Shown: one piece after another, positions 3,401 to 61,675 of the stretch | Position numbering within the stretch: the stretch's first letter is position 1 | How the letters are laid out: each line of letters opens with the position of its first letter | Assembly (NCBI GenBank): GCA_026874595.1 | Contig: CM049307.1 | Span: forward strand, 28,869,079 to 28,933,078 | Reading direction: 5' to 3' | DNA: 64,000 nucleotides | DNA from: Sipunculus nudus | Lineage: Eukaryota; Annelida; Sipuncula; Golfingiida; Sipunculidae | Notes under the pieces: model-generated | The model's database searches: none | Seen by the model: only the letters and a program-made list of their open reading frames with translations | What the model was told of the DNA's origin: nothing | Program-made: the position numbers and the translations under genes

Positions 3401-3406
3401 TAAAAT

Positions 3407-3424
3407 TGGGGGCTCGTCCGGGAT
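3407..3424 (+). promoter_or_regulatory. tRNA-Pro primer binding site
   Basis: TGGGGGCTCGTCCGGGAT is complementary to the last 18 nt of mature tRNA-Pro including CCA. It is the same primer site used by several vertebrate retroviruses and gypsy elements. It lies 6 bp after the LTR and starts minus-strand DNA synthesis. Confidence 0.95.
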
Positions 3425-3544
3425 GCTTAATAGTTTTCAAATTTATTAGGCCTTTACCTGGACATTGTTCTATCATACATTGTTTACAAGATTACATATT
3501 GTTTACAGGATTTATCTCAATTTTTTTTGTTATTGTTTTCAAAC

Positions 3545-4850
3545 TGAGACATTTGTTGACGATCCGGACCCTGATCAACTTGAACAGTTGTCAAAAGACC
3601 AGTTGTTGCGTTTGGGACATTACTTGTGAAAAAAGCTTTGAGAAAGCCTGATATCATTGCTAAAATCATGCAAGATCTTATTAGAAAAGGTTTAATTGAA
3701 GAGATTGAAGTTGAAACATAAAAAAAATTATAGCCTTGCTATGCAATTGGAATTTAAAAAGTTAGAAATGCAACATTAGCTAGCATTAAAACAGTTAGAA
3801 TTAGAAAAAGAAAAACAGAGAGAAGAGAGGGAAGAACATGAAAGGTTAGAAAGAGAAAGACTAGAAAAAGAAATAGAAAGAGACAGACTAGAAAAAGAAA
3901 AAGAAATTAAGTTAAGACGACTGGATTTAGAAAGACTTAAAGTAGAACGTAGTCTAAGTGCTGCCCCAACTCACAGTTTTGATGTTACTAAACACATTAG
4001 ACTTGTCCCAACATTTCAAGAAAAAAAGGTTGATAAATATTTCTTACACTTTGGGAAGGAAGCTGAAAATTTAAAATGGCCCTGAGGAAAATTGGACTAT
4101 GTTGTTACAAAGTGTATTGACTGGCAAGGCCAGAGAAATTTATACAGAGCTTTCAGTAGAAGCTGCTGCTGACTATGACCTGGTAAAACGGTTAATCCTA
4201 AAAGGTTACGAGTTAGTTCCAGAGGCTTACCGCCAGAAATTGAGAAATCGGGAAAAGCGCAAAGAACAGACCTACGTCGGGTTTGCTAGGACAAAAGATC
4301 AGTTGTTTGATCGCTGGTGTGGTTCTAAAAATGTAATGAAAGATTATGACAATTTGCGCCAGTTTGATTTTGCTTGAAGAATTTAAGCGCTGCATTAACG
4401 CAGATGTTAAAACTTTTCTCGATGAGAAAAGTCCTAAAACACTTGACATTGCGGCTCAATAAGATGATGATTATTCATTGTCACACAAAAATGTCCTTTA
4501 CTAGCAAATCAAACCAGTCATTCATAAATAAGAATGTAAAACAGTTTGGTTAAAAGAAGTTTACAGCGCAGTCTCTCAGTACTAGTAGTCCTGATAGTTC
4601 AGCAAAGCCTATAGATACATCTCATTCCACGTCCACTGTGTTTTAGTCCAACAAAGACCAGTATTTTCAAAGAAAATCTGTAATTACTGCAAGAAGGAAG
4701 GTCATCTAATATCTGACTGCTGGAAACTTGCGAATAGACCAAATAGCAAACCTTCTGGTTTTGTTTCAAAATCTATGCATAGCATAGTACAAGAGCCAGG
4801 CTCTTTTCATGTAAATAAGGGGTACAACTACTTTATTGGCTCCAGTAAAA
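3545..4850 (+). pseudogene. gag: gag remnant, gypsy copy 1
   Basis: The stretch encodes broken pieces of a Gag polyprotein, the structural protein of the retrotransposon particle. In order these are an N-terminal segment rich in Leu (PDQLEQLSKDQLLRLG near 3570), a long Lys/Glu/Arg-rich coiled-coil-like region (about 3720-3950), a capsid C-terminal segment (QSVLTGKAREIYTELS, YELVPEAYRQ at 4105-4240), and a zinc knuckle. The initiator Met seen in copy 2 at 39071 is lost here and many stops and frameshifts interrupt the frame. The VPEAYRQ-type segment recalls the SCAN-like capsid domain of other gypsy elements; this is family knowledge, not a computed match. Confidence 0.8.
4679..4720 (+). other. 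Gag zinc knuckle CX2CX4HX4C, copy 1
   Basis: The codons read CNYCKKEGHLISDC, a complete retroviral-type CCHC zinc knuckle for RNA packaging. Copy 2 keeps it at 40592-40633. Confidence 0.92.
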
Positions 4851-4874
4851 TAGTTTGATGCTACGGAGGCCCAC

Positions 4875-5135
4875 GTGCCTTCTGAATCCAAAGGAAAATC
4901 CGTAGTTTGCGGGGTAAAAACCTCAGTTGATTCCTGCGAGGGATTAAATAAGGCTAGGTCCTTTCAAGACTCCTGCGAGGAGTGTTCTCTAAATAAGTCC
5001 TTTTATGACTCTTGGGAGAGTATTTCAAATGACGCCAGGTCCTATTATGACAAACAGAAGTTTATTTCTACTGAGGAAAATTCCTCTGTTGACTCCCATG
5101 AGGAGTTTGATGATAAAAAAGATGTAGATCCTTAG
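4875..5135 (+). pseudogene. Gag-protease linker, acidic Ser/Asp/Glu-rich, copy 1
   Basis: An 86-codon open stretch between zinc knuckle and protease is rich in Ser, Glu and Asp with repeated DS(C/W)E units (DSCEGL, DSCEEC, DSWESI, DSHEEF). It probably is the linker between nucleocapsid and protease. Copy 2 has the matching stretch at 40800-41040, where stops cut it. The repeats suggest internal duplication of a short acidic motif; no function can be assigned. Confidence 0.55.
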
Positions 5136-5155
5136 ATGACTCTGAAACAGAGTTT

Positions 5156-5770
5156 ATGACTGACACCTTCAATGTCAGTTCTTTGTTTGATGAAGTTGAA
5201 GTAGTAGATTCCTCTCTTGACTCTAAAATGGAGTTATTTGAACCATTCATATATGATGGTTTTGTATCACTTTCGAGTGATTTTTCAGATTCAACCCCTA
5301 TTAGAATTTTGAGGGACACTGGTTCAGGCCAGACTCTCATGTTAACAAACACTTTGCCATTTTCTGGTAGGTCCTTTACTGGTGCACATGCACTTGTTAA
5401 TGGTGTTTTTTCAGACAGGCACACTTCATTTCCGCTTCACAGTATTCATTTAAATTCGGAATTGATTTCTTGGAATATTACTGTGGGCAAAAGAACTACT
5501 TTACCCTTTAAGGGAATTCAGTTGCTACTAGGCAATGATGTTGCAGGTGATAAAGTGCAGCCTGTAACGATAGTGACAGAAAAGCCGTCACTTGATCAGG
5601 ACACTGATCTGGAAAGTCAGGAAATTCCTGGTTTGTATCCTTCATGTGCTGTAACTAGATCTATGGCCAAGAAAAACACAAATGAGGATAATGGTCCAGA
5701 TTATAACACTCTGGGAGTCACTAGTGACTCGTCTAACGACTCGCCCGTACAGGATGCAGCATTCTCAAGG
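5156..5770 (+). pseudogene. Aspartic protease of gypsy copy 1
   Basis: The best preserved part of copy 1: an open frame runs from 5156 to 5908. The catalytic motif DTGSG lies at residues 54-58 (Asp codon at 5315), and a LLLGNDVAGD segment near residue 124 fits the C-terminal (I/L)LG(N/R)D element of retrotransposon proteases. The enzyme would cut Gag-Pol as a homodimer in the particle. An acidic spacer follows and the frame runs into the start of integrase. Copy 2 has Val in place of the catalytic Asp. Confidence 0.78.
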
Positions 5771-6934
5771 TCAGAACTTATCGCGGAACAGCATAAGGAC
5801 CCTGATATTTCATGTTTGTTTCCCAGGGCAGTTTCTAAAGATGAGCTGTCACAGAACCCAGTTTATTTCTATGTCAAAAATGGAGTGTTCATGCGTAAAT
5901 GGCGTTAGGTATAAATAAAACGTATCAGAAAGTTAGTACACATTTCTATTGGCCTAATCTCAGGAAAGATGTTATCATGCCATACATGCCAGACGGTAGG
6001 CAAGCCCAATCAGAATCCTCCTAAGGCCCCACTTAGGCCTATTCCTGCTTTCGAGGAACTATTCAGTAGGATTATTGTTGATTGTGTTGGACCACTGCCC
6101 AAAACAAAATCTGGACATGCATATTTGCTGACAATTATGTGCACATCTACCAGGTTCCCTTAGGCAATACCCTTGCGCGAAATTAATGCCAAAAGTGTTG
6201 TCAAAGCTCTGACCAAATTTAACTTTTGGATAACCAAAATCCGTTCAGTCTGACCAAGGGTCTAATTTTATGTCTGGCTTATTCCAACAAGTTATGCTTG
6301 AGCTAGTTATAAAACAGTACAGCTTTTCGCCATACCATCCTGAAAGTCAGGGCGCCCTCGAGTGTTTTCACCAGACATTAAAAAAAATGATCAGAACTTA
6401 TTGCTATGACACACAGAAAGACTGGAATAAAAGAATCCACCTATTTCTGTTTGCTGTCAGAGAATCCTTTCAAGAGTCCTTGGGTTTCAGTCACTTTTAC
6501 TGCAGTATGTCTCAGACTTTCGCACTAAACTACACAATGCTTGTGAGATTGCAAAGTCAAATCTAAAATCTGCACAAAGTAAAATGAAAACAAGGTATGA
6601 CAAGCACACTGTAGGTCGAACGTTTGAGCCTGGTGAAAAGGTCCTTGCCTTACTTCCCATCCCTGGCAGACCTCTGCAAGCTAGGTATTTTGGTCCTTTC
6701 ATTGTTGACAAGAAAGTCAATGATTTAAATTACATACTGTTGACACCAAATAGATGTAAGAAGAAACAACTGTGCCATGTTAACATGTTGAAACCATATT
6801 ATGACAGGAACAGCACATCAGATGTTGTACAAAATGTTACAGCTGTTAAATGTGTAAATACTGACCCTGACCGAGTTAAAGTAGATACTGATTGTAAGTG
6901 TGATGTAGACATTCAGTGTGGTACAGTACCATAA
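5771..6934 (+). pseudogene. Integrase of gypsy copy 1, upstream of RT
   Basis: Pieces in several frames encode an N-terminal pre-segment (LIAEQHKDPDIS, YFYVKNGVFMRKW), the end of the zinc-binding domain (CHTC near 5976), and the catalytic core: IIVDCVGPL (first Asp at 6080), QSDQGSN (second Asp at 6252) and the Glu in GALECFHQ (codon 6360-6362). The C-terminal GPF module follows (RYFGPFIVDKK near 6690). About 120-130 bp carrying the two zinc-binding His residues is deleted at about 5908; copy 2 keeps that region. The enzyme would insert element DNA into the chromosome. Its place before RT is the key oddity. Confidence 0.85.
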
Positions 6935-6944
6935 AAAAACTCAG

Positions 6945-7705
6945 ACATACTTAAAAACCTTGATGCCAAACTGTCACACCTTACCGCACAACAACAACAA
7001 GACCTCAAGAACCTGCTGCTGAATTATGAACATTTGTTTAGTGACATTTCAACGCGAACTAACATGTTGTGGCATGACGTCGATGTTGGCGAGGCAAGCG
7101 CAGTCAAGCAACATCCTAATAGACTGAATCCAGAAAAGCAAAAGTATCTACAAGATGAGATTCAATATTTGCTTGACAATGATTTTATTGAACCTAGTAA
7201 CAGTAACTGGAGTTTACCATGTATTCTTGTGCCAAAACCTGATGGAAGTTACCGTTTATGCACAGATTATCGAAAACTGAACTCTGTCACCAAGATTGAC
7301 ACGATCCCGATTCCGAGGATCGATGACTGTATTGATAGAGTCGGTAGCTCCAGATATGTCTGCAAGTTTGACTTGCTAAAAGGATTCTGGCAAGTTCCGC
7401 TGACAGATCGAGCGAAAGAAGTGTCCGCATTTGTGACGCCGCAAGGACTATCCCAGTATAAAGTTATGCCGTTTGGCATGAAGAACTCTCCAGCCACGTT
7501 CCAGCGCCTCATCCATATGGTTGTCAAGGACATTCAGGGCTGCGACGCATATATTGATGACCTTATCGTGTACAGCGACACCTGGGAGAAACATCTGCAA
7601 ATTCTTCGCGACCTCTTCGAAAGACTCAGTGAATCACGTCTGGTCGTCAACTTAGTGAAATCTGAGTTTTGTCATGCACAAGTAACATTTTTGGTTATAT
7701 TGTAG
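6945..7705 (+). pseudogene. Reverse transcriptase of gypsy copy 1
   Basis: An almost uninterrupted frame (224 codons from 7034) holds the Ty3/gypsy RT fingers and palm. Visible motifs are YLLDNDFIEPSNSNW, SLPCILVPKPDGSYRLCTDYR, FDLLKGFWQVPL, TPQGLSQYKVMPFGMKNSPA and the catalytic YIDD at 7550-7561 followed by LIVYSD. Together these are diagnostic. The frame is lost at 7705, inside the segment leading into the RNase H connection. The enzyme copies the element RNA into DNA from the tRNA-Pro primer. A short upstream frame (LTAQQQQDLKNLLL) joins it to the integrase tail, as in a single Pol polyprotein. Confidence 0.9.
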
Positions 7706-8345
7706 GGCAGGGTCAGGTAAAACCTGTTGATGCTAAAATAAGTGCTATTTCTGCATTTCCTAGACCAGAAAACAAAAAGCAAATGATGGGTTTTCTTGGT
7801 ATGGATACTACAGGAAGTTTTGTCCAAATGTTTCTGCTGTAGCTGAACCTTTGTCTAATTTTTTAAAGAAGAAACAAAAGTTTGTATGGAGTGTTCAGCG
7901 TGTAAATGCATTTAAGAATTTGAAAACAATTCTGCAAAGTTCACCAGTTTTAGCAGCTCTAGACTTTTCTGTACCTTTAAAGATAGCTGTAGATGCTAGT
8001 AATACTGCTGCTGCTGCTGTGTTGTTACAAGAAGGCAATGATGGCATAGATCATTCAATTTGTTATTTCTCAAGAAAGATTAATGCAAACCAGAAAAACT
8101 ACTCCACTTTTGAAAAACAATGTTTGGCTTTGATTTTGGCGTTGCAACATTTTGAAGTTTATGTTACTTCATCAGTCAGGCCTATCATTGTCTTCAGTGA
8201 TCACAATCCCCTCACATTCATGAACAAGTTGAAGTGTAAAAATAAAAAAAAAAATGTTGAGATAATGTTTGTTCTTACAGGATTAATCTCTTGATATCAT
8301 GTACATTAAAGGGAAAGACAATGTACTTGCTGATGCTTATCGAGA
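7706..8345 (+). pseudogene. RT connection and RNase H of gypsy copy 1
   Basis: The RT thumb/connection segment (FPRPENKKQMMGFLGM) is separated by a frameshift from an open frame (7851-8294) with RNase H signatures: AVDASNT with the first catalytic Asp, SICYFSRKIN, KNYSTFEKQCLALILAL and VFSDHNPLTF. The usual acidic residue of the KE(C/L)LAL motif is Gln here but Glu in copy 2, so the site looks damaged. RNase H would degrade the RNA strand during reverse transcription. The frame ends in an A-rich slip near 8245. Confidence 0.85.
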
Positions 8346-8422
8346 TGTTTATGAAATGTTGTAAACAAGGTGTTTATGTAATGTTGTTTTTTGAGATGTA
8401 AAAATTTAGTGATTGTGATCGC

Positions 8423-8455
8423 AAAAAGAAAGTTTTCCGTGAAAACTTTCTTTTT
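8423..8455 (+). other. Perfect hairpin upstream of polypurine tract, copy 1
   Basis: AAAAAGAAAGTTTTC, loop CGT, then the exact reverse complement: a 15-bp stem with a 3-nt loop. Copy 2 has the same hairpin at 44464-44498 with a different loop. Confidence 0.9.
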
Positions 8456-8464
8456 TCTTACAGC

Positions 8465-8472
8465 AGGGGGAG
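8465..8472 (+). promoter_or_regulatory. Polypurine tract, copy 1
   Basis: AGGGGGAG abuts the 3' LTR and would prime plus-strand DNA synthesis. Confidence 0.85.
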
Positions 8473-9203
8473 TGTTACAGGTGCCCTTTTTATTATGTGA
8501 CACGGGCGTAACTCCTGTTGTGGCACTCGTGTCTGGCCGCGTATTATATTCTATGTTTAATCCGTACTGGTTGAACTCTCGTTGTTATGTTTAGCCTTGG
8601 GTTTTCACGCTTGGTCGTGGGTCACGTGATGAGCCTGGTATGTGGAGATACACAGCGCTGTTTTTCTGGAAAATTCCTGAAACGCTGTAGACTGTGTTGT
8701 GCAAGATCTTATAGACTGTTCGAGAAGTGGAAAATTCTCGGCTTGAGGTGGGAAGGTATATAAATGGGTGTGTTTTAGAACGGAAGAGAACAGCAGAGCA
8801 GATTCCAGCGGACGCAGAAGCGTGTGTCAGGACCTTATCCGACGAATACGGCAATAATAGATATTCAAAGACCTTCTCCTGGATTTTATACATTTGGACT
8901 TCAGTTTACTTTCTGGGTTGTTGCAAGAACTTTCCACTGGACTGTCATTCTCCGTGAGTTTACATTTAAAGGACTTATCGTTGTGATGGTGTTTGTACCC
9001 AGGTACTGTGCACATTATTTTCTATGTGATTGTATTTATTTGTTGTTATACCGCTGTTTTACTGTATAATTGTATTGATTTTGTGTATTGTAATGTTAAG
9101 GTTGTTTTAAGAAAAAATGTTACAGAATCTGATTTTTTTATCTCCATTACAAAACTTGTGTTCATCACACATACGTGATCTGCTTATATTAGGTTCCGTA
9201 ACA
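8473..9203 (+). repeat. 3' LTR of gypsy copy 1 (731 bp)
   Basis: It begins TGTTACAGGTGCCC and ends GGTTCCGTAACA. It matches the 5' LTR with scattered substitutions and lacks about 60 bp just before the internal TGTTACAG at 9118, which accounts for the length difference. The divergence implies an old insertion. Confidence 0.93.
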
Positions 9204-13384: not shown

Positions 13385-14935
13385 AAGACAAACAGGAATA
13401 TCAGAGGTAGTGAGGTATAGGAGCGGGAAGATATAGGTCAGTCAGGTAAGGAAGTACACAGGAGGTTGTGAGGTAAATGAAGACATAGATAGACCAGAGA
13501 AAGAAGAACACAGGAAGTTGCGAGGCACAGGAACACATAGATAAACCAGAGGAAGAGGTACACAGAATGTATGTTGTAAGTAAAGGAAGACAAACAAAAG
13601 CAAGAGAAGGAAGTATACAGTGAGTTGTGAGGAAAAGGAAGACATCCACAGGCCAGAGAAAGAGGCACACAGGAGGTTGTGACGCAGAGTCAGATATAGA
13701 TAAGCCAGAGAAAGAGGTACACAGGAGGCTGCAAGGTAAAAGAAGATAAACATAAACCAGAGAAGGAAGTACATATGAGGTTGTAGGGTACAGGAAGACG
13801 GAGTTAAGTCAGAGAAGGAAGTACACACTAGGTTGTGGCGTACACGAAGACATAGATAAGCCAGAGAAGGAAGTACACAGGGGGTTATGAGGTACAAGAA
13901 GACATAGATTAGCCAGACAACCAGTTACACATGCAGGTGATTGTGATGTACAGTAAGACATAGATAAGCCTGATAAGGAGATACACAGGAGTATGTGACG
14001 TACAGAAAGACATAAATAGTTCCGATAAAGAGGAAAACAGGAGGTTGCTAGGTAATGAAAGACAAACATTAGCCAGAGACGGAAGTATACAGGAGGTTGT
14101 GACGTACAGGAAGACATAGATAAACCAGAGAAAGAGGTACACATGAGGCTGTAAGGTAAAGGAAGATAATAAACATAAACCAGAAAAGGAAGTACATATG
14201 AGGTTGTAGGGTACAGGAAGACATAGTTGAGCAAGAGAAGGAATTACACAGGAGGTCGTGGCGTACACGAAGACATAAATAAGCCAAAGAAGGAGGTAAC
14301 CAGGAGGTTATGAAGAACGGGAAGACATAGATTAACCAGACAAGCAAGTACATATGCAGGTGATAGTGAGGTACAAGAAACATAGATAGGCCCCAGAATG
14401 AGTAACACAGGACGTTGTTAGGTAAAGAAAGATAAACATTAGCCAGAGATGGAACTATATAGGAGGTTGTAACGTTCAGCAGACATAGATAAGCCAGAGA
14501 GGGAAGTACACAGGTGGTTGTGAGGTACAGGAAGACATAGAAAAGCCAGAGAAGGAAGTACACAAAAGGTATGTTGTAAGGTAAAGGACGATAGACAGAA
14601 GCCAGACAAGCAAGTACACATGCAGGTGATTGTGAGGTATAGTAAGACATAAATAAGCTAGATAAGGAGATACACAGGAGTTTGTGAGGTACAGAACGAC
14701 ATAGATAGCCCTAGAAAGAGGTACACCGGAGGTTGTTAGGTAAGATAAACATTAGCCAGAGAAGGAAGTACATAGGAGGTCGTAACATACAGGAAGACAT
14801 AAATAGGCAAGAGAAACAGATACACATTTTTTTTAAGGTAAAGGATGATAAACATAAGCCAGCGCTTGAAGGTTGTGAGGTACAGGAAGACAGATAACCC
14901 AATTAAGATGTTGTGAGGTTCCAAAAGAGATAAAT
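13385..14935. repeat. Satellite/minisatellite, unit about 52 bp
   Basis: About 28-30 diverged head-to-tail units with consensus GGTACAGGAAGACATAGATA then AGCCAGAGAAGGAAGTACAC then AGGAGGTTGTGA. Some units carry insertions such as GTATGTTGTAAG. The array is purine-rich on the plus strand, and the minus strand stays open for up to 193 codons. A 52-bp unit is one base more than a multiple of three, so every long frame cycles through all three phases. Confidence 0.93.
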
Positions 14936-30662: not shown

Positions 30663-30734
30663 TGTTACGAAGACAAATTTTGAGGGGAAAACATTGGGCC
30701 GATCCCGGTTTCGAACCCATGTTGGTGGCGCACA

Positions 30735-30798
30735 TTAGGGGTATGATTCTCCATTTGGGTGCGAGAGGTCCCGGGTTTATATCCCGGACGAGCCCCCA
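30735..30798 (+). pseudogene. Retrocopy of mature tRNA-Pro (UGG), 5' truncated
   Basis: TAGGGGTATGATTCT, then TTTGGGT (anticodon TGG), GCGAGAGGTCCCGGG, and CCCGGACGAGCCCCCA follow tRNA-Pro from about nucleotide 12 to 76. The 3' end includes discriminator C and CCA, which animal genes do not encode, so the template was mature tRNA. The anticodon stem has two mismatches; T-loop positions 56 and 58 are altered. The 5' acceptor strand is missing, so it cannot be a working tRNA. Confidence 0.88.
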
Positions 30799-30801
30799 TT
30801 T

Positions 30802-30957
30802 TGTTACGAAGACAATTTTTTGAGAGAAAAACATTGGGCCGATCCCGGTTTCGAACCCATGTTGGTGGCGCACAAGTCCGGCGTACCAACCGCTTCGCTA
30901 GAAAAGCAAGCTTCACTAGCGAGACAGTTCGGACTGCTTTTATGTCACCCCGTAACA
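30802..30957 (-). repeat. TRIM LTR (156 bp) with Pol III boxes
   Basis: TGTTACGGGGTGACATAAAA starts it at 30957 and CTTCGTAACA ends it. A box TAGCGAAGCGG is at 30900-30890; the B box is GGTTCGAAACC at 30857-30847 (one base off consensus); a T5 run follows. Confidence 0.88.
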
Positions 30958-34483: not shown

Positions 34484-35706
34484 AGCTCAGCTGACTGTAA
34501 GTCAGAATGTAAGGATTTTTTTCTCTATTTTTTGAGAACTTTAAAAATGAGAACATCTGTTAACAGGGCACAAATCGTAAAGACTGGACCTAGAATCTTT
34601 ATTCTTGACACACGGAGAGACCTATAAAAAGTCTCAATTGAAACAAGAAATTAGGTCTCTGTTACCCATATCCTTCAAGCTATGGGGCCCCAAAGTAGCC
34701 CCCCCCCCCAGAATAATGGAAAATTTTATTTAAAAAAACTGCAACATCTCAATAACTACAACACTGATGGTCATGATTTTTGGCATACATATTGATCATG
34801 AGGTGTTCCATCAGTTCCTGTAGACTGGTGGCGCCACCTGTATTTTTTCAATTTTTTTACAATTTTTTTCTCAATTTTTGAGACCTTTAAGAATGTAGTT
34901 ATCTTTCAACCAGGTACAAATCGTAACGACTGGACCTAGAATCTTCATTCTTGACACACAGGGAGACCCATGAAAAGTCTCCATGAAAACCTAAAATTAG
35001 GTCTCTGTTACCCATATCCTTTGAGCTATGGCACTCCAAAGTACAGCTCAGAATAATGGAAAATTTGATACAAAAGCTGAAGTATATGAACAACTAATGC
35101 AGAGAACATCATAATTGTTTGCATGGATATTGATCATTGAGTGTTTCATCAGTTTCTGCAGAATGGTGGCACCATCTGAATTTGTTCGGGTGTTTTTACG
35201 AATTTTTTTCTCAATTTTTGAGACCTTTAAAGATATGAACATCTGTTAACAGGGCACAAATCATAACAACTGTACCAAGAATCTTCATTCTTGACACACA
35301 GGGAGACCCATGAAAAGTCTCCATGGAAACCTGAAATAAGGTCTCTGTTACCCATATCCTTCAAGCTACAGGACTCCGAAGTATCCCTCAGAATAATGGA
35401 AAATTTGATACAAAAGCTGAAGTATCTAAGCAACTAATGCAGAGATCACCATGATTCTTTGCATGGATATTGACCATGTGTTTTTATTAGTTTCTGCAGA
35501 CTGGTGGAGCCACCTGTATTTTTTTTAAAGTTAACGCATTTTTTCTCTATTTTTGAGATATATAAATACAGACACAATCTTGGCCTGTTGGTTAATCTGT
35601 TTGATGCTTCAGTTGAATGGGTATATACTACCATTCAGATGATAAAACTTCCTTTTGCGAATCTCTTCCCAGTCAGCTGAGCGTCATGACCCATGGGTCA
35701 CTTGTC
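34484..35706 (+). mobile_element. Family B element with ~340-bp internal tandem units, copy 1
   Basis: The left end AGCTCAGCTGACTG and the right end CAGTCAGCTGAGC form inverted repeats, and the sequence closes with CCCATGGGTCACTTGT as in copy 2. Inside are about 3.5 tandem units of 332-346 bp, starting near 34517, 34863, 35203 and 35535. Each has TTTTTGAGACCTTTAA, CTAGAATCTTCATTCTTGAC, GGTCTCTGTTACCCATATCC and AGAATAATGGAAAATTTGAT. The palindrome GGTGGCGCCACC is intact at 34827-34838 and degenerate in other units. No protein is recognised. Confidence 0.8.
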
Positions 35707-38341: not shown

Positions 38342-38937
38342 TGTTACAGATGTCTGTTTTATTGTGAGCTGTTGACATATCTCTTTTATTGTTCGCTGTT
38401 GACATTCTGATTCGTGTTTGGGTCAAGCCCTGGGCGTTGCTATGCTACAGCGTTCCGTGTTCTAGCTGGCCGGGTGCGGCCAAAGTGTGAAAAGACAGCG
38501 GTCATGCTAGTCTGGGGCTTTATCGCCTGGCCGGCCCACTGGTGAACCCTGATATGTAGAAACACAGCATTCATTGTTCTAGATATTTGCTGTAACGTGT
38601 GTACTATTGGGTTCTTTGGATTGTTCGAAAAATGGAAAGTTCTCAGCTTGAGGTGAAACGTTATTAATAAGGGGCTGTGTTTTAGAGCCAGGAGAGAGAA
38701 GAGAAATATTCAGCGGACACAGAAGTGTGTAATTGTATTGATTTAGTGTATTGTAATGTGAGGATTGTTTTAAGAATAAATTATAATTATTTGTTAACAA
38801 AAAAACACTGACTTCTTTATTCATTCCCCTAGACATTTCACGCTGCCTAGTGTTACAGAATCTGAATTTTTTTATCTCCATTACAAAATTTATGTTCGTC
38901 ACGACTACGTGATCTGTTGATATTAGGTTCCGTAACA
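38342..38937 (+). repeat. 5' LTR of gypsy copy 2 (596 bp)
   Basis: It begins TGTTACAGATGTCTG and ends GGTTCCGTAACA. Compared with copy 1, about 300 bp are missing after GACACAGAAGTGTG, where the sequence resumes at TAATTGTATTGATTTAG. Confidence 0.9.
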
Positions 38938-38943
38938 TAAAAT

Positions 38944-38961
38944 TGTGGGCTCGTCTGGGAG
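38944..38961 (+). promoter_or_regulatory. tRNA-Pro primer binding site, copy 2 (15/18)
   Basis: TGTGGGCTCGTCTGGGAG differs from the copy 1 site at three positions, probably decay after insertion. Confidence 0.8.
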
Positions 38962-39070
38962 GCATAATAGTTTTGAAAATTTATTAGCCCTTGCCCTAGA
39001 CACATTGTTTACATAGCATTGTTTACAGGATTTATCTCAGTGTTTTTTGTAATTGTTTTAACATCTTAAC

Positions 39071-39769
39071 ATGGCAGATTTCAAACCTGAGACATTTCTT
39101 AAAGATCCCAACCCTGATCAACTTGAACAGTTGACAAAAGATCAGTTGTTGCGTTTGGGACAAGACTTAGGGCTAGGTGTGAAAAAAGCTTTGAGAAAGA
39201 CTGATATCATTGCTAAAATCATGCAAGATCTAGCAAATGTTTAATTGAAAAGAGTGAAGTGGAAACATAAAAATGACAGCCTTGCTATGCAGTTGGAATT
39301 AAAAAAAGATAGAAATGCAACACGAGCTAGCATTAAAGCAGTTAGAATACGAAAAAGAAAAACAAAGAGAAGAGAGGGAATTAGGAAAACAAAAAGAAAT
39401 AGAAAGAGAAAGACTAGAAAAAGAAAAAGAGTTAAAACGACTGGAGTTAGAAAAGGAATATTGGACTATGCTATTACAAAGTGTATTGACTGGAAAAGCC
39501 AGAAAAATTTATACAGAGCCTTCCGTAGAAGCCGCTGCTGACTATGACCAGGTTAAACGGTTAATCCCAAAAGGTTATGAGTTAGTTCCGGAGGCTTACC
39601 GCCAACAATTCAGAAAATTATGAAAGATATGAAAGATTATGACAATATGCGCCAGTTGATTTTGCTTGAAGAATTAAAGCGCTGCAGTAACGCAGATGTT
39701 CAAACTTTCTGGATGAGAAAACCCCTGACACTTGACATTGCTGCTCAATTAGCTGATGATTATTCATTA
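39071..39769 (+). pseudogene. gag: gag remnant, 5' part, gypsy copy 2
   Basis: An ATG at 39071 opens MADFKPETFLKDPNPDQLEQ, then LTKDQLLRLGQDLGLGVKKA, up to a break near 39240. This is the natural Gag start, lost in copy 1. A Lys/Glu-rich coiled-coil-like stretch follows (39315-39460), then a direct jump to the capsid C-terminal piece QSVLTGKARKIY...YELVPEAYRQ; about 180 bp present in copy 1 are deleted here. The reading frame shifts repeatedly. The coding stretch is interrupted at 39774 by the TRIM insertion. Confidence 0.8.
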
Positions 39770-39773
39770 ACAC

Positions 39774-39931
39774 TGTTACGGGGTGACATAAAAGCGGACC
39801 GAACTGTCTCGCTAGTGAAGCTTGCTTTGCTAGCGAAGCGGTTGGTTCGCCGGACTTGTGCGCCATCGACCTGGGTTCGACTCCCGGATCGGCCCAGGAA
39901 TTTTTCCCCTCAACAATTTGTCTTCGTAACA
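39774..39931 (+). repeat. TRIM LTR 1 (158 bp) with tRNA-like Pol III unit
   Basis: It begins TGTTACGGGGTGACATAAAA and ends CTTCGTAACA. A box TAGCGAAGCGG (39831-39841) matches TRGCNNAGYGG at every position. B box GGTTCGACTCC (39874-39884) matches GGTTCGANTCC at every position. TTTTT (39901-39905) follows as a terminator. The D arm GCGAA/TTCGC and T arm CTGGG/CCCGG pair, with a 7-nt T loop; the anticodon stem does not pair. Confidence 0.92.
39831..39905 (+). promoter_or_regulatory. Internal Pol III promoter (A box, B box) and T5 terminator
   Basis: The boxes are 32 bp apart, as in tRNA genes. The loop CTTGTG suggests a tRNA-Thr(UGU)-like ancestor, which is inference. The second LTR (B box changed to GGCTCGACTCC) and third LTR keep A box and T5, and the third keeps a perfect B box. 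Confidence 0.85.
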
Positions 39932-40037
39932 AAATGGGGGCTCGTCTAATGTGACAATTAACTTTGTGGCCCAGGAAATAAGCCCACCAAAGTGTGACTC
40001 ATGGGATAATTAGGCAGAACGCTCTTAAAAGGGGGTG
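39932..40037 (+). other. TRIM internal region 1 (106 bp)
   Basis: AAA, then TGGGGGCTCGTC (primer-site core, 39935-39946), then a non-coding segment, then AAAAGGGGGTG as the purine tract before the next LTR. The primer-site match stops after 12 nt. Confidence 0.85.
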
Positions 40038-40171
40038 TGTTACGGGGTGATATAAAAGCGGACCGAAGTGCTAGCGAAGCGGTTGGTTCGCCGGACTTGT
40101 GCGCCACCGACCTGGGCTCGACTCCCGGATCGGCCCAGGATTTTTCCCCTCAACAATTTGTCTTCGTGACA
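40038..40171 (+). repeat. TRIM LTR 2 (134 bp)
   Basis: Begins TGTTACGGGGTGATATAAAA and ends CTTCGTGACA. It lacks about 25 bp before the A box. Confidence 0.88.
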
Positions 40172-40288
40172 AAATGGGGACTCGTCCTACGTGACAGTTA
40201 ACTTTGTGGCCCAGGGAATAAGCTCACCAAAGTGTGACTCCTGGGATAATTAGTCTTGTTCTGATAGCAGAACGCTCTTAAGGGGGGG

Positions 40289-40393
40289 TTTGCTAGCGAA
40301 GCGGTTGGTTCGTCGGACTTGTGCGCCACCGACCTGGGTTCGACTCCCGGATCGGCCAAGGATTTTTCCCTATTACAATTTGTCTTCGTAACA
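40289..40393 (+). repeat. TRIM LTR 3, 5' truncated
   Basis: Starts directly at the A-box region (TTTGCTAGCGAAGCGG) after AAGGGGGGG and ends CTTCGTAACA. A and B boxes and T5 are intact. Confidence 0.88.
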
Positions 40394-41085
40394 ACACACA
40401 AAATGTCCTTTACTAGCAAATAAAACCAGTCATTCACAAACAAGAATGTAAATCAGTAAGGTCAAAAGAGGTTTAAGGCGCAGTCATCCAGTACTAGTAG
40501 TCCTGATAGTTCAGCATAGTCCATTGCTACACCTCAGTCCACGTCCACTGTGTCTGAATCGAACCAAGGCCAGTCTTTTTCAAAGAAAATTTGTAATTAC
40601 TGCAAAAAGGAAGGTCATCTAAAAATCGACTGCTGGAAACTTGCAAAAAAAACAAAATGTAAAGCTTCTGGTTTTGTTTCAAAATCTATGCATAGCAAAA
40701 TACAAGAGCCAGGCTCTTTTCATGTTAATAAGGGGTACAACTCCTTTATTGACTCTACAAAAGAGTTTGATGCTACGGAGGTCAACGTGCTGTCTGACTC
40801 CTAAGAAAAATCCGCAGCTTGCGGGGTAAAAACCTCAGTTGATTCCTACGAGGTATTTAATAAGGCTAGGTCCTTTCAACTTCTGCGAGGAGTATCCTTT
40901 AAATAAGACTAAGTCCTTTTATGACTCTTGCGAGAGTATTTCAAATGAGGCCAGGTCCTCTTATGACAAACAGAAGTTTGTTTCTGCTGAGGAAAATTCC
41001 TCTGTTGACTCCCATGAGGAGTTTGATGGTAAAAGGATGTAGATTCCTCTAATAACTCTGAAAAGAGAGTTTATGACTGACACTA
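40394..41085 (+). pseudogene. gag: gag remnant, 3' part, gypsy copy 2
   Basis: Continues Gag after the TRIM. A frame from 40550 holds the zinc knuckle CNYCKKEGHLKIDC (40592-40633) and a Lys-rich tail. An acidic linker with DSCE/DSHE units follows to about 41040, cut by stops. It corresponds to 4490-5135 of copy 1. Confidence 0.8.
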
Positions 41086-41650
41086 TCAGTGACAGTTCTT
41101 TGTTTGGTGAAACTGAGGTAGTAGATTCCTCTCCTGACTCCGAATTGGAGATATTTGAGCCATTCATACACTTTTAAGTAATTTTTCAGATTCTACCCTA
41201 TATGAATTTTGAGGGTCACTGGTTCAGTCCAGACTCTCATGTTAGCGAACACTTTGCCATTTTCTAATAGGTCTTTTACTGGTGCACACGCACTTGTTAA
41301 TGATGTGTTTTCAGACAAACACACTTCAGTTCCGCTTCACAGTATACATTTAAAGTCAGATTTGATATCTTGGAATATTACTGTTGGCATAAGAACTGCT
41401 TTACCTTTTAAGGGAATTTAGTTGCTGCTAGGCAATGATGTTGAAGGTGACAAAGTACAGTCCGTACCAATAGTGACACAAAAGCCGTCACTTGATCAGG
41501 ACACCGATCCTGAAAGTCAGGAAATTCCTGGTTTGTATCCTTCATGTGCTGTAACAAGATCTATGGCCAAGAATAACACATATGAGGATAATGGTCCAGA
41601 AAATAACACTCTGGGAGTCACTAGTGACTCGTCTAACGACTCGCCCGTAT
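41086..41650 (+). pseudogene. Aspartic protease of gypsy copy 2, catalytic Asp lost
   Basis: The frame around 41209-41421 reads RVTGSVQTLMLANTLPF where copy 1 reads RDTGSGQTLMLTNTLPF: the catalytic Asp codon is GTC (Val). The C-terminal LLLGNDVEGD lies just after a stop at 41419-41421. The enzyme would be inactive even without the stop. A spacer matching copy 1 follows. Confidence 0.8.
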
Positions 41651-42830
41651 AGGATGCAGCGTTTTCAAGGTCTTTCAAGAAATTATCACAGAACAGCATG
41701 AGGTCTCTGATATTCCATGTTGGTTTCCCAGTTTCTAAAGATGACCTGTAACAGAACCCAGTTTGTTTCTATGTTAAAAATGGAGTGCTTATGCGTAAAT
41801 GGCGACAACCTGGTGTATGTGATGATGAGTGGGCCATCAAACATCGAATAGTAATGCCCAAAAGTTATCGCAATTAAATTGTAAGCATGGCACATGAGGC
41901 TCCTTTGTCTGGCCATTACGGTATAAATAACTCTTATCAGAAAGTTAATACACACTTCAATTGGCCTAACCCTAGGACTGTTGTTGTAAATCATGCCATA
42001 CGTGCCAGATGGTAGGCATCCCAATCAGAATCTTCCTAAGCCCCACTTAGGCCTATTCCTGCTTTCGATGAACCTTTTAGTAGGATTATTGTTGACTGTG
42101 TTGGACCACTGCCCCCCCTCCCCCCCCCCCCCCCAAAAAAAATCTGGAAATGAATACCTGCTGACAATTATGGGCGCATCTACCAGGTTCCCTGAGGCAA
42201 TTCCATTGCGCAAAATTATTGCCAAAAGTGTTGTCAAAGCTCTGACCAAGTTTATTACATCTTTTGGATTACCAAAATCCGTCCAGTCTGACCAAGGGTC
42301 TAATTATATGTCTGGCTTATTCCAGGAAGTTATGCTTGAGCTAGGTATAAAACAGTACAGCTCTTCGCCATACCATCCTGAAAGTCAGAGCGCCCTCTAG
42401 CATTTTCACTAGACATTAAAAAACATGATTAGGACCTATTATTATGACACACAGAAAGACTGGGATGAAGGAATCCACCTGTTGCTTTTTGCTGTCAGAG
42501 AATCCTTTCAAGAGTCCTTGGGTTTTAGTCCCTTTGAACTAGTTTTTGGACACTCAGTTCTCGGTCCATTCAAACTGCTTGAAGAAAAACACTTGTGTGA
42601 AAATCCTGATTCTCTTAGTTTGTTGCAGTATGTCTCAGACTTTCGCACTAACCTACACAATGCTTGTGAGATTGCAAAGTCTTATCTACAATCTGCACAA
42701 AGTAAAATGAAAACAAAGTATGACAAGCACACTGTAAGCAGGACGTTTGACCCAGGTGAAAGGTCCTTGCCTTACTTCCCATCCCTGGCAGACCTCTGCA
42801 AGCTAATATACAAGTAGGTATTTAGGCGTA
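41651..42830 (+). pseudogene. Integrase of gypsy copy 2, catalytic Glu replaced by stop
   Basis: This copy keeps the N-terminal zinc-binding region deleted in copy 1 (AHEAPLSGHYGINNSYQKVN near 41890-41950). The core has the first Asp (IVDCVG, codon 42094) and second Asp (SDQGSNYMSG, codon 42290). The position of the catalytic Glu is TAG at 42398-42400, and a second stop follows five codons later. A poly-C/poly-A run near 42112-42141 adds a frameshift. Downstream FAVRESFQESLGFSPFELVF and the tail are well preserved. The integrase again precedes RT. Confidence 0.85.
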
Positions 42831-42959
42831 AGAAGAAACAACTATGCCATGTTAACATGTTGAAACCATATGATGGCAGAAATAGCACAACAGATGTTAT
42901 ACATAATGTTACTGCTGTTAATTGTGTAAAAAATGACCCTGACCCAGTTTAAGTAGATA

Positions 42960-43745
42960 CTTATTGTAAGTGTGATGTCGACATTCAGTGTGGAACAGTA
43001 CCACTTAAAAACTCAGAAGTGCTTAATAACCTGTCACACCTTACCGCACAACAACAACAAGACCTCAAGAACCTGCTGGGGAATTATGAACATTTGTTTA
43101 GTGACATTCCAACGCGAACTAACATATTGTGCCATGACATCGATGTTGGCGAGGCAAGCGCAGTCAAGCAGCATCCTTATAGACTGAATCCAGAAAAGCA
43201 AAAAGTATCTACAGGATGAGATTCAGCATTTGCTGGACAATGATATTATTGAATCTTGTAACAGTAACTGGGGTTCACCATGTATTCTTGTGCTAAAACT
43301 TGATGGAAGTTACCGCGTATGTGCACACATTATCGAAAACTGAACTCTCTCACCAAGACTGACACGTTCTAAGGATCGATGATTATATTGATAGAGTCGG
43401 TAGCTCCAGATATGTCTCCAAGTTTGACTTGCTAAAAGGATTCAGGCAAGTTCCGCTGACAGAACGAGCAAAAGAAGTGTCCGCATTTGTGACGCCGCAA
43501 GGACTGTACCAGTATAAAATTATGCCGTTTGGCATGAATAACTCGCAAGCAACGTTCCAGCGCCTCATCCATATGGTTGTCAAGGACATTCAGGGCTGCG
43601 ACGCATATATTGATAACCTTATCGTGTACAGCGACACCTGGGAGAAACATCTGCAAATTCTTCTCGACCTCTTCGAAAGACTCAGTGAAGCACGTCTGAC
43701 CATCAGCTTAGTAAAATCTGAGTTTTGTCATGCACAAGTTACATT
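42960..43745 (+). pseudogene. Reverse transcriptase of gypsy copy 2, YIDD changed to YIDN
   Basis: Frames at 43019-43219 and 43429-43749 encode LTAQQQQDLKNLLGNYEHLF, VGEASAVKQHPYRLNPEKQK and, after frameshifts, FRQVPLTERAKEVSAFVTPQ and MPFGMNNSQATFQRL. The catalytic box reads YIDN (43606-43617): the second metal-binding Asp is Asn, which would inactivate RT. Three or more indels lie between 43200 and 43380. Confidence 0.88.
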
Positions 43746-44390
43746 TTAGGTCATATTGTAGGGCAGGGTCAAGTAAAACCTGTTGATGTTAAAATAGGTG
43801 CTATTTTTGCATTTCCTAGACCAGAAAACAAAAAGCAAATAATGCGTTTTCTTGGTATGGTTGGATACTACAAGAAGTTGTGTCCAATTTTTTTCTGCTG
43901 TAGCTGAACCTTTGACTAATTTGTTAAAGAAGAAACAAAAGTTTGTATGGAATTTCAGAATTTGAAAGCAATTCTGCAAAGTTCACCAGTTTTGGTAGCT
44001 CAAGACTTTTCTGAACCTTTTAAGTTAGCTGTAGATGCTAGTGATACTGCTGGTGCTGTGTTGTTACAAGGAGGCAATGATGGCATAAATCATCCAATTA
44101 GTTATTTTTCAAGAAAGTTTAATGCAAACCAGAAAAACTACTCCACTATTGAAAAGGAATGTTTGGCTTTGATTTTGGCATTGCGTTATTTTGAAGTTTA
44201 TGTTACTTCTTCAGTCAAGCCTATCAATGTCTTCAGTGATCACAATCCCCTTACGTTCTTGAACAAATTGAAGTGTAAAAATCAAAGATTGCTGGGATGG
44301 AGTTTGTTTTTACAGGATTACAATCTTGAAATCAGACACATTAGAGAGAAAGACAATGTACTTGCTGATAGCTTATCGAGATGTTTTTGA
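43746..44390 (+). pseudogene. RT connection and RNase H of gypsy copy 2
   Basis: After a stop/frameshift at about 43749, the connection (FPRPENKKQIMRFLGMVGYY) and RNase H follow. The frame 43947-44390 reads AVDASDTAGAVLLQ, PISYFSRKFNANQKNYSTIE, KECLALILAL, VFSDHNPLTFLNKLKCKNQR and ends KDNVLADSLSRCF, a natural C-terminus. The catalytic acidic residues look intact, so RNase H is the least damaged domain of this copy. Confidence 0.88.
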
Positions 44391-44463
44391 AATGTTGTAA
44401 ACGAGATGTTTATGTAATGTTGTAAAGTGTTGAGATATTGTAAAGATTTAGTGATTGTGATCG

Positions 44464-44498
44464 AAAAAAGAAAGTTTTCCGAGAAAACTTTCTTTTTT
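44464..44498 (+). other. Perfect hairpin upstream of polypurine tract, copy 2
   Basis: AAAAAAGAAAGTTTTC, loop CGA, exact reverse complement: 16-bp stem. Both arms equal those of copy 1 while the loop differs by one base. Confidence 0.9.
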
Positions 44499-44504
44499 CT
44501 TACA

Positions 44505-44514
44505 GAAGGGGGAG
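44505..44514 (+). promoter_or_regulatory. Polypurine tract, copy 2
   Basis: GAAGGGGGAG directly precedes the 3' LTR. Confidence 0.85.
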
Positions 44515-44801
44515 TCTTACAGATGTCTGTTTTATTGTGAGCTGTTAACATGTCTTTTTTATTGTGCGCTGTTGACATTCTGATTCGTGTTTGGCTCAAG
44601 CCCTAGGCGTTGCTATGCTACAGCGTTCCTTGTTCTAGCTGGCCGGGTGCGGCCCACGTGTAAACACAGTGGTCATGCTAGTCTGGTGCTTTCTCGCCTG
44701 GCCGAGCTTTGACGGCCCACTTATGAACCCTGATATGTAGAAACACAGAATTCGTTGTTCTAGATGTTTCCTGTAACGTGTGCTATTGGGTTCTTTGGAT
44801 T
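44515..44801 (+). repeat. 3' LTR of gypsy copy 2, truncated
   Basis: Begins TCTTACAGATGTCTG (first G mutated) and follows the 5' LTR to GGGTTCTTTGGATT, where it breaks into a satellite. Confidence 0.88.
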
Positions 44802-59462: not shown

Positions 59463-61675
59463 TTAGCTCAGCTGACTGAAAGTCATCTCCAAAGTACAGC
59501 TCAGAATAATGGAAAATTTGATACAAAAGCTAGAGTATCTGAACAACTAATGCAGAGATAACCATAATTGTTTGCATGGATATTGATCATGGAGTGTTTC
59601 ATAAGTTTCTGCAGACTGGTGGCACCACCTGTATTTGTTCAGTTTTTTTTACGAAATTTTTCTGTATTTTTGAGACCTTTAAAGATATGAACATCTGTTA
59701 ACAGGGCACAAATCATAAAAACTGGACCAAGAATCTTCATTCTTGACACACAGGGAGACCCATGAAAAGTCTCCATGGAAACTTGAAATTAGGTCTCTGT
59801 TACCCCATTCTTTAAGCTGTATGGGTCCAAAATAACCCCCCCCCCCCCCCAGAATAATGGAAAATTTGATACAAAAACTGCAGTATTTCAATAACTACAA
59901 CACTGATGGTCATGATTTTCGGCATACATATTAATCATGAGCTGTTCCATCAGTTTCTGCAGACTGGGTGTGCCACCTCTATTTTTTTACAAATTTTTTC
60001 TTTTTTTTGAGACCTTTAAAGATGTGGTTATCTGTCAACAGGGTACAAATCGCAACAACTGGACCTAGAATCTTCATTCTTGTCATGCAAGGAGGCCCAT
60101 GAAAGGTGCCTGTGGAAACTTGAAATTAGGTCTCTGTTACCCATATCCTTCAAGCTATAGGACTCCGAAGTATCCCTCAGAATAATGGACAATTTGATAC
60201 AAAAACTGAAGTATCTGAACAACTAATGCAGAGATCACCATGATTTTTTGCATGGATATTGACCATTAAATGTTTTTATTAGTTTCTGCAGACTGATGGA
60301 GCCACCTGTATTTTTGTATCTGCCAAAACGAAGTTTTGCGGATACTATGTTTTTGACCGAGTTCCTCCACCGCGGCGGCGTTCGTTTCCAGAGAGCTCCT
60401 CGGAGACAAATGGACCGATTTTTCCCAAACTTACACCTATTATCGGGTCACATGTGAACTGGTGCCTAACCAATTTGCGTTGACCTCTGACCTTTCCTCT
60501 CTATCCAGTGTCCATTTGTGAGTCTGTTTCCACTCATAAACCCTCATATCTCGGGAACCGTTTGACCGATCAGGAAATAAAATTGATACAAATGTAGCCC
60601 TTGGATTGCTTTATAACATACACAAAAAATGGTGGCGCCACCTGTAACCATGTTTGCACAGTGTCCATCTGTTCATCTGCCTTGGGTTAAAATCACTCAT
60701 ATCTCTGCAGTGAATTGACTAATTCACCTGAAATTCGTCATGCGTATACATCCAGGATAGCTTTCTTGATTTTATGACAGGTGGCGCCACCTACGTTCAC
60801 GTTCACGCTGATGACATCCAAGCTTATATCTTGGGAACTGTTTGACCGATCAGGAAATAAAATTTATACAAATGTAGCCCTTTGATAGCTCTGTAACATA
60901 CACAAAAAATGGTGGCGCCACCTGTAACAATGTTTGCACAGCGTCTGTCTGTTAGTTTGCCGTGGCCTAAAATCACTCATTTCTCTGTAGTGGTTCGACA
61001 TAACTGCCTAAAATTTTACAGGTTTATACATCGTGGACAGCTTTCTTGATTTTATGACAGGTGGCGCCACCTACATTCTAGTTAACGCTGCACACATCCA
61101 AGCTCATATCTCAGGAACCATTTGACCGATTGGGCCAAAATTGTGCATGTGTTTAGATCTCACATAGGTCTTTATCATACACAAAACTGGAGGGGTTACC
61201 TGCAAAGATTTTTGCACAGTGTTTGTCTGTTTGTCTGCCATGGGCAAAAATCGCTCATATACATGTAGTGGTTTGACTTTTCTGCCTAAAATTTTGCAGG
61301 TGTATACAACTTGGACAGCTTTCTGGATTTGTGGTAGGTGGCACAACCTACATACACATTTAGGCTGCAGACATCCATGCTAATATGCAACATACCTCAC
61401 TCTATTTCCCCTTGCCACTCAATCCATGCCTCACTATCCGATTTTGGCAGATACATGTAGTCACTTGTCGGTTACCCGTATTCTAGTTTTAAAAGTTTAC
61501 ACATTTTTCTCTATTTTTGAGATATATAAATACAGACTAAATCTCGGCCTGTTGGTTAATCTGTTTGATGCTTCAGTTGAATGGGTATATACTACCATTC
61601 TGATGATAAAATTTCCTTTGCGAATCTCTTCCCAGTCAGCTGAGCGTCATGACCCATGGGTCACTTGTTTGTTTA
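59463..61675 (+). mobile_element. Family B element, copy 2, with nested family C
   Basis: Starts AGCTCAGCTGACTGAAAGTC and ends CAGTCAGCTGAGCGTCATGA then CCCATGGGTCACTTGT as copy 1. Two and a half ~335-bp units remain (starts near 59663 and 59999). The left end is joined directly to the middle of a unit, so part is deleted. Family C interrupts the last unit. It is itself inserted in family A copy 2. Confidence 0.8.
60316..61454. mobile_element. Family C element with ~280-bp tandem units
   Basis: Starts GTATCTGCCAAAACGAAG and ends GATTTTGGCAGATAC, inverted termini. The left end is itself a hairpin (60316-60345, GTATCTGCC.../...GCGGATAC). Three units of about 280 bp follow (near 60545, 60828, 61105) with TTTGACCGATCAGGAAATAA and GGTGGCGCCACC. 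No protein is recognised. Confidence 0.75.

Follow-up and report, generated by a model that had tools for sequence, protein, structure and literature searches.

A Helenus-type miniature LTR element in Sipunculus nudus and genomic traces of its probable tRNA-Pro primer and Gypsy partner

Background

What transcribes, primes and copies a short non-coding LTR element whose LTRs contain the promoter boxes of a tRNA gene is the question raised by positions 39774-40393 of the 64,000 nucleotides of Sipunculus nudus DNA analysed here (the window). A previous reading from the letters alone (the sequence-only reading) had described a miniature LTR element (TRIM) at this place, with a tRNA-like Pol III-type promoter in its LTR, and the sequence, a shuffle test and copies elsewhere in the genome all uphold that description. 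The same reading had treated a transcript that begins within the LTR as a puzzle, but this is a general feature and not specific to this TRIM: the RNA of LTR elements runs from within the 5' LTR to within the 3' LTR, and complete LTRs are restored during reverse transcription. It is probable that the element is a Helenus-type TRIM, presumably transcribed by Pol III, copied by Gypsy enzymes with tRNA-Pro as primer, and integrated with a 4-bp target site duplication (TSD).

Layout of the element and its copies in the genome

Sequence and self-comparison resolve 39774-40393 into LTR-int-LTR-int-(5'-truncated LTR) with an ACAC duplication on either side (Table 1); since three LTR copies are present, this is a three-LTR array and not a simple LTR-int-LTR element. 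The array sits within the second of two copies of a Gypsy-type element in the window. The following landmarks that had been picked out by inspection are present: the TGTTACG...CGTAACA termini, the primer site, the purine tract, and the T5 run just after the promoter boxes. Self-comparison of the window also gave a tandem satellite-like repeat region (13406-14900) and two related repeated blocks about 80% alike (34515-35566 and 59487-60318), and simple repeats at 880-1617 yield long spurious open frames.

Table 1. Features of the TRIM array, of a second TRIM copy and of the Gypsy-type elements (positions in the window)
Feature	Position	Strand	Basis or remark
TSD ACAC, left	39770-39773	.	equals 40394-40397
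First LTR, 158 bp, TGTTACG...CGTAACA	39774-39931	+	sequence, genome copies
TATA-like ATAAAAG, LTR positions 15-21	39788-39794	+	sequence; conserved among LTR copies
57-nt hairpin over A box region, LTR positions 21-77	39794-39850	+	z -5.8; deletion hotspot in copies
A box TAGCGAAGCGG, first LTR	39831-39841	+	sequence, genome copies, shuffle test
B box GGTTCGACTCC, first LTR	39874-39884	+	sequence, genome copies
T5 run, Pol III-type terminator, first LTR	39901-39905	+	sequence
Internal domain 1	39932-40037	+	self-comparison
Primer binding site (PBS) TGGGGGCTCGTC, 12 nt complementary to tRNA-Pro 3' end with CCA	39935-39946	+	host tRNA-Pro genes
Polypurine tract (PPT) AAAAGGGGGTG preceding second LTR	40027-40037	+	sequence
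Second LTR, 134 bp, hairpin region 24 nt shorter	40038-40171	+	self-comparison
Internal domain 2	40172-40290	+	self-comparison, copy comparison
Third LTR, 5'-truncated (LTR positions 53-158, without first 52 nt)	40289-40393	+	self-comparison
TSD ACAC, right	40394-40397	.	equals 39770-39773
Second TRIM copy: LTR 30802-30957, captured tRNA-Pro, partial LTR 30663-30734; TSD ATAC	30663-30957	-	
L179, reverse complement of mature tRNA-Pro(UGG) with CCA, 63 nt, 59/63 identical	30736-30798	-	
Candidate autonomous partner, Gypsy-type; LTRs 2607-3400 and 8473-9203	2607-9203	+	self-comparison, domain search
Gypsy PBS TGGGGGCTCGTCCGGGAT, 18/18 to tRNA-Pro with CCA	3407-3424	+	
Gypsy integrase, C-terminal part, upstream of reverse transcriptase	6431-6934, within 2607-9203	+	
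Gypsy reverse transcriptase (RVT_1)	6935-7705, within 2607-9203	+	
Gypsy RNase H	7764-8294, within 2607-9203	+	
Second copy of same Gypsy, short open frames only; contains TRIM array	38342-44801	+	

The genome (1.43 Gb in 153 contigs) was searched with three queries, of which the entire array gave 2649 first-look candidates, a single LTR 2547 and a single internal domain 612; the best 40 of each were scored, and the sampled copies are the nearest relatives of the queries. Copies of the family were seen at more than 100 places, and 162 of the 181 fetched loci, some of which overlap, have an LTR match over 60 nt. Many copies have the form LTR-int-LTR with a length of about 400-430 bp (LTR about 158 bp, internal domain about 119 bp). 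One array, L010 (C17:41308538-41312758), comprises nine LTR pieces with eight internal domains between them.

An exact 4-bp TSD flanks 53 of the 74 distinct elements that have both ends, whereas 1000 shuffles of left and right flank pairs among these 74 gave a mean of 6.0 and a maximum of 15. The many LTR-bounded copies with 4-bp duplications that the sequence-only reading had called for as a test do exist. TSDs are found for arrays (16/20), single elements (36/52) and solo LTRs (1/2), and for 31 of the 44 elements with letters other than A and T in the left flank; the commonest is ATAT (15/53).

In 32 elements, identity is 0.909 between an element's own two LTRs and 0.892 between LTRs of different elements (permutation p 0.0005), and the own partner is the best match of an LTR in 1 of 32 elements. 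The proposition that LTR pairs are too dissimilar for LTR replication was rejected on this difference, and the low similarity within elements is read, from sequence divergence, as the mark of an old burst. A genuine bias between 5' and 3' LTRs would likewise speak against LTR replication. Among copies found with the full-length query, deletions of at least 6 nt affect 25 of 30 3' LTRs vs 3 of 34 5' LTRs, a bias that stems from the shorter second LTR of that query; a systematic difference was rejected as a query artefact because it is absent from the samples obtained with the internal domain or the LTR (5' 7/27 vs 3' 6/21, and 5' 2/24 vs 3' 5/22).

Promoter, fold and hairpin of the LTR

The A and B boxes of the first LTR begin 43 nt apart and are followed by a T run. 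When the dinucleotides of this LTR were shuffled 1,028,000 times, an A box and a B box at tRNA spacing followed by T4 turned up in 4 of the shuffles. The description of the boxes as perfect is true of the first LTR only, because the second has a damaged B box (GGCTCGACTCC) and fails the A box/B box/T4 pattern. Among 198 LTR copies, the A-box pattern is found in 139, the B-box pattern in 151 and both intact in only 97, of which 90 keep the distance of 43 nt between box starts. A T run of at least 4 lies near the terminator position in 178 of the 198, and ATAAAAG lies within the first 30 nt of 163. From this promoter sequence we infer transcription of the TRIM by Pol III.

The tRNA fold fared less well than the promoter. 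The D and T arms had been said to pair, and the T arm can, but the predicted Pol III transcript of the LTR is no more stable when folded than shuffled sequence (z -0.07), ARAGORN found no tRNA in the element or the window, and the Rfam tRNA family was unmatched over the element at E values up to 10, as was 5S rRNA. The nearest Rfam match was that of the third LTR copy to the tRNA-like mascRNA (17.5 bits vs a threshold of 42.5; E 1.1), and at gathering scores Rfam matched nothing anywhere in the 64-kb window. Within the B box, conservation among LTR copies is lowest at the two N positions (108 and 109), and common variants at LTR positions 98 and 112 break pairs of the T stem, which are kept in 148/195 and 129/191 copies, respectively. 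These two patterns of variation suggest that the promoter, rather than the tRNA fold, is what persisted, and retention of the promoter but not of the fold seems to characterize the LTRs of this TRIM, although the contrast is small.

The same data bear on an alternative in which the TRIM, the Gypsy element and tRNA-Pro keep their roles, with Pol II transcribing from the TATA-like box at LTR positions 15-21 and the tRNA-like unit a passenger or the relic of a SINE insertion. The frequency of ATAAAAG, at a distance suiting a start near position 45-50, fits this alternative, as does the failure of ARAGORN, Rfam and folding against shuffles to detect a tRNA fold; and in 54 of the 198 LTRs a TTTT, which would be awkward for Pol III, precedes the terminator region. 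Yet the spacing of the boxes is kept, the variation at positions 108/109 and 98/112 is as expected if the promoter matters and the fold does not, and the internal domain is nearly free of TTTT (6 of 132 copies, which share ancestry and are not independent, vs 31% of mononucleotide shuffles). Transcription by Pol II is thus possible but distinctly less likely than transcription by Pol III.

The strongest structure of the LTR is a hairpin at positions 21-77 (z -5.8 for 60 nt); in the second TRIM copy of the window, a 133-nt stretch that includes the hairpin gives just z -1.5. In a tally that left out LTRs broken near an end, deletions of at least 6 nt fall into 60 distinct spans, and 49 of the spans reach positions 21-77. 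Such deletions occur in 13 of the 54 LTRs of the internal-query sample, and all 15 elements with deletions in the full-length-query sample had them in the 3' LTR only. Of the 32 elements that the internal and LTR queries yielded, 20 lack deletions, 10 have them in one LTR only, 2 have different ones in both, and none has a deletion common to both LTRs; the deletions thus probably postdate copying and originated in the hairpin. The region 21-77 is therefore likely to be a hotspot of host-side deletion.

Primer site and genomic copies of tRNA-Pro

TGGG is found near the LTR end in 126 of 143 LTR-internal junctions, and in 81 of these 126 it forms part of exactly TGGGGGCTCGTC, beyond which most junctions diverge from tRNA-Pro. 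In most TRIM copies only 12-13 nt of the PBS match tRNA-Pro, and the full 18 nt match in 6 of 143 junctions. At PBS positions 13-18, most sampled copies have TAACGT-like letters and a minority have CGGGAT, the letters of tRNA-Pro; these two versions may possibly represent an RNA-copied and a tRNA-copied site, respectively.

The second TRIM copy of the window carries a reverse-complemented tRNA-Pro between its LTR pieces (L179 in Table 1), and a genome search with this internal part hit host tRNA-Pro genes. ARAGORN called a tRNA-Pro in 6 of 6 fetched loci (L143-L148), and 38 of the 40 scored matches begin right after the letters complementing CCA. The captured tRNA-Pro pieces include TGG, the complement of CCA; the host genes at L143, L144, L146 and L147 do not encode CCA.

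A whole-genome pattern consisting of the PBS continued by the tRNA-Pro body matched 4 sites (L178-L181), with no match to a reversed-pattern control. The 20 nt after the PBS agree with tRNA-Pro at 18-20 positions in these 4 sites and at no more than 10 in the other 59 examined, and ARAGORN found no tRNA gene in the four capture loci. L178 has 38 nt of tRNA-Pro without mismatch after a TRIM LTR-int-LTR, L180 has 39 nt without mismatch after a Gypsy LTR end, and L181 has 39 nt with a single mismatch, at nt 19. The mismatches of L179 are at nt 19, 21, 46 and 47, of which nt 19 lies opposite A58 on the assumption that the 72-nt tRNA-Pro gene is one base short in the D loop. Thus L179 and L181 have A in place of T opposite A58, whereas L178 and L180 read A58 correctly; the other three mismatches of L179 are at neither A58 nor G37. 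L180 and L181 stop exactly before the complement of G37, and L178 stops one base earlier. G37 of tRNA-Pro is known to carry a methyl group (m1G37). On visual inspection, no clear TSD could be made out past the captured tRNA in L178 and L181, and the sequence after the 39 nt of L180 (C10:39754219) resembles a degraded TRIM LTR end.

A58 is described as methylated in primer tRNAs, including tRNA-Pro, and as the normal stop of plus-strand DNA, and reading through it has been studied in retroviruses (PMC13191261). A retroviral A58U mutant is reported to have given no extra tRNA sequence (PMC1785368), and reverse-transcribed tRNA-Gly is reported to adjoin HIV proviruses (PMC12220202). In the titles and abstract openings surveyed on primer-tRNA capture, A58, and palindromic or inverted LTRs, no TRIM case appeared beyond PMC10886601 itself.

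The Gypsy partner and a TRIM-Gypsy chimera

The Gypsy-type element at 2607-9203 has LTR ends TGTTACAGG...TTCCGTAACA and a purine tract before its 3' LTR; its flanks are AT repeats, so its TSD cannot be verified. In the second Gypsy copy, an rve domain (41990-42400) likewise precedes RVT_1 (43363-43749). The TRIM and the Gypsy element have in common TGTTAC/CGTAACA ends, the PBS and a purine tract, and comparison of their LTR bodies and internal regions found no similarity beyond the ends and the PBS region. The LTRs of a fungal Helenus element and its partner are described as likewise dissimilar (PMC10886601).

CGTAACA followed within 0-8 nt by the 18-nt PBS occurs 316 times in the genome and not at all in the control. 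From the first 100 of these, 40 regions with spacers other than TAAAAT were fetched; 30 lead into the TRIM internal domain and 7 into an inverted LTR, and in the remaining 3 the PBS is followed by a repeated LTR fragment (L105), belongs to a TRIM LTR without recognised internal domain (L132) or belongs to Gypsy (L136). One fetched copy, C4:64292367-64294037 (L156, L169 and L173), is a chimera consisting of a TRIM LTR (87% identity), PBS, Gypsy leader/gag (75-88% over about 1.2 kb), TRIM internal domain (93%) and TRIM LTR (85%), with TRIM LTRs outermost and CAAG on both sides. Judged by eye, its second switch falls near CTCGTCC, in a brief run of letters common to both families. A chimeric copy with its own TSD ties the TRIM and the Gypsy element together, and on such sequence evidence the Gypsy element probably moves the TRIM. 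In L159, a Gypsy LTR end and leader are joined to a PBS in inverted orientation together with a partial TRIM LTR.

Inverted-LTR copies

An inverted LTR was sought anywhere after the PBS in 53 fetched full-PBS loci (L103-L142 and L156-L168). Fourteen match an inverted LTR, of which 7 show just the hairpin of the LTR itself (positions 21-77, 74-82% identity) and 7 an inverted LTR proper; the latter represent 6 distinct loci, since L106 and L107 look like a duplication, and the 13 loci of the second batch contributed none. These loci were picked by the exact 18-nt PBS from the first 100 of the 316 occurrences, and 7/53 is accordingly a rate for this selection and not for the family.

In all 6 distinct loci the inverted LTR starts at LTR position 115 and touches the end of the PBS. 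The PBS end TCCGGGAT is complementary to the LTR sequence ATCCCGGA (8 nt) or TCCCGGA (7 nt), so that the junction falls exactly where the primer site matches the T-arm of the LTR; the full 8 nt are found in only 11 of 198 LTR copies and the 7 nt in 99. The 18-nt PBS joined to NNNAACCC after CGTAACA has 15 exact genome sites, including two of the tRNA read-throughs and the 7 inverted loci, and ATGGGGG...TTCGAACCC has 10, partly the same as these 15. Outer TSDs are present in 3 of 3 assessable inverted loci (TGGC in L150, AGGA in L154, ACAG in L155 with L172); L151, L152 and L153 each have one end of the inverted copy that could not be assigned and lie outside these three.

Could the inverted-LTR copies and the tRNA-Pro pieces be host rearrangements or neighbouring insertions, and not products of reverse transcription? 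Such an origin could accommodate the unassignable ends of L151, L152, L153, L178 and L181, and selection by the exact 18-nt PBS would miss inverted copies with other left junctions. It is nevertheless quite improbable, because 6 of 6 distinct loci begin at position 115 although the search would have revealed other starts, because all three assessable copies have 4-bp TSDs outside both arms, and because the tRNA pieces are colinear with the PBS, contain the CCA complement and in part change at A58 or stop at G37.

Relationship to known elements

The claim that no animal family of this kind has been named did not survive: Helenus ("TRIMp3"), described by Kojima in 2024, occurs in fungi, a plant and six animal phyla, with 4-bp duplications in animal families (PMC10886601). 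By its described features, and with the published description rather than the Repbase family sequences as the standard, the TRIM at 39774-40393 fits Helenus as a new member: it is a short non-coding element of about 400-430 bp with two LTRs, A and B boxes within the LTR that are tRNA-like rather than a recognised tRNA, a PBS to host tRNA-Pro and a PPT between the LTRs, and the 4-bp TSD of animal families in 53 of 74 elements. As described, Helenus likewise combines tRNA-like A and B boxes in the LTRs with a PBS and PPT, 4-bp TSDs in animals and a Gypsy-type PBS, with tRNA-Pro among the primers of bivalve families and tandem arrays in the zebrafish family LTR-11_DR; its transcription by Pol III is proposed there and also unproven (PMC10886601). 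What is reported for animal Helenus is PBS similarity to Gypsy, whereas a Gypsy recombinant and tRNA-Pro captures are found here; and whereas the description of the animal families, as far as it goes, gives no complementarity between LTR unit and PBS, a T-arm/PBS match of 7-8 nt is found here at inverted-LTR junctions (PMC10886601). The literature on Helenus or TRIMp3 since 2024, as far as it was surveyed, yielded a meeting report citing that paper.

Cassandra, a plant TRIM, shares the Pol III-type promoter in the LTR and the tandem LTR-int arrays (PMC7215508, PMC10886601), and the parallel drawn with it in the sequence-only reading is apt as an analogy; unlike Cassandra, which has 5S rRNA in its LTRs, the element studied here has a tRNA-like unit and no 5S. 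The biv-TRIM of bivalves is also an animal TRIM with solo and tandem forms, and is described with TDRs of 202-218 bp, an internal region of 77-80 bp, no canonical PBS and no partner found (PMC6934838). Identity with biv-TRIM was rejected on these described lengths and the PBS only, the present element having an LTR of about 158 bp, an internal domain of about 119 bp and a clear tRNA-Pro PBS. The partner element has its integrase upstream of reverse transcriptase and resembles Gmr1-like Gypsy elements (PMC8220671, PMC3587641) in domain order only.

That a SINE or tRNA pseudogene was inserted once into an unrelated repeat whose LTR form is accidental, the case named by the sequence-only reading as fatal to its own proposal, is extremely improbable and, for the sampled copies, already refuted by their alignments: the unit is tRNA-like and a SINE insertion has been proposed as the distant origin of such LTRs (PMC10886601), but sampled two-LTR copies align over the unit in both LTRs, truncations and small deletions apart, and have fixed 4-bp TSDs, a PBS and a PPT.

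Proposed mode of replication

For a Helenus-type TRIM transcribed by Pol III, the following course of events is envisaged. Guided by the TATA-like box and the A and B boxes, Pol III would start near LTR position 40-48, sometimes pass the 5' T run and stop at the one in the 3' LTR. The RNA would then begin with the first LTR's tRNA-like unit and end at the last T run, and, if the 5' T run is read through, the unit would serve as the terminal repeat R at each end. According to the genome record, this RNA would be copied by the enzymes of a Gypsy element with integrase upstream of reverse transcriptase, as in the Gmr1-like order; mature tRNA-Pro would prime, with plus-strand DNA normally halting at its A58, and the product would be integrated with a 4-bp duplication. 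Hopping between co-packaged RNAs would give TRIM-Gypsy chimeras.

The by-products may be explained by the T-arm that the promoter has in common with the primer tRNA. Plus-strand DNA stalled at the methylated A58 and failing to transfer would land on the matching T-arm sequence of the LTR's tRNA-like unit and be extended there, giving inverted-LTR elements that Gypsy integrase inserts; where the stop itself fails, the DNA would continue through the body of the tRNA, as far as the methylated G37 or past it, and leave copies of the primer tRNA in the germline. The promoter would thus shape the by-products too, an explanation that we favour with less assurance than the overall reading of the element.

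Conclusions

The kind of element found here, Helenus, was already known; what appears to be new is a genome record of its primer, its partner and its inverted-LTR junctions. The primer and the autonomous partner of animal Helenus were formerly inferred from short PBS similarity (PMC10886601). In S. nudus, genome copies record the primer, as reverse-copied mature tRNA-Pro that is changed or stopped at two methyl-bearing positions, A58 and G37, and the partner, as a TRIM-Gypsy recombinant. The copies suggest that there is a cost in having a promoter of tRNA type next to the primer site for a tRNA. They also make the m1A58 stop, a subject of retroviral studies, visible as fossils in the germline, which other genomes would allow to be counted as well.
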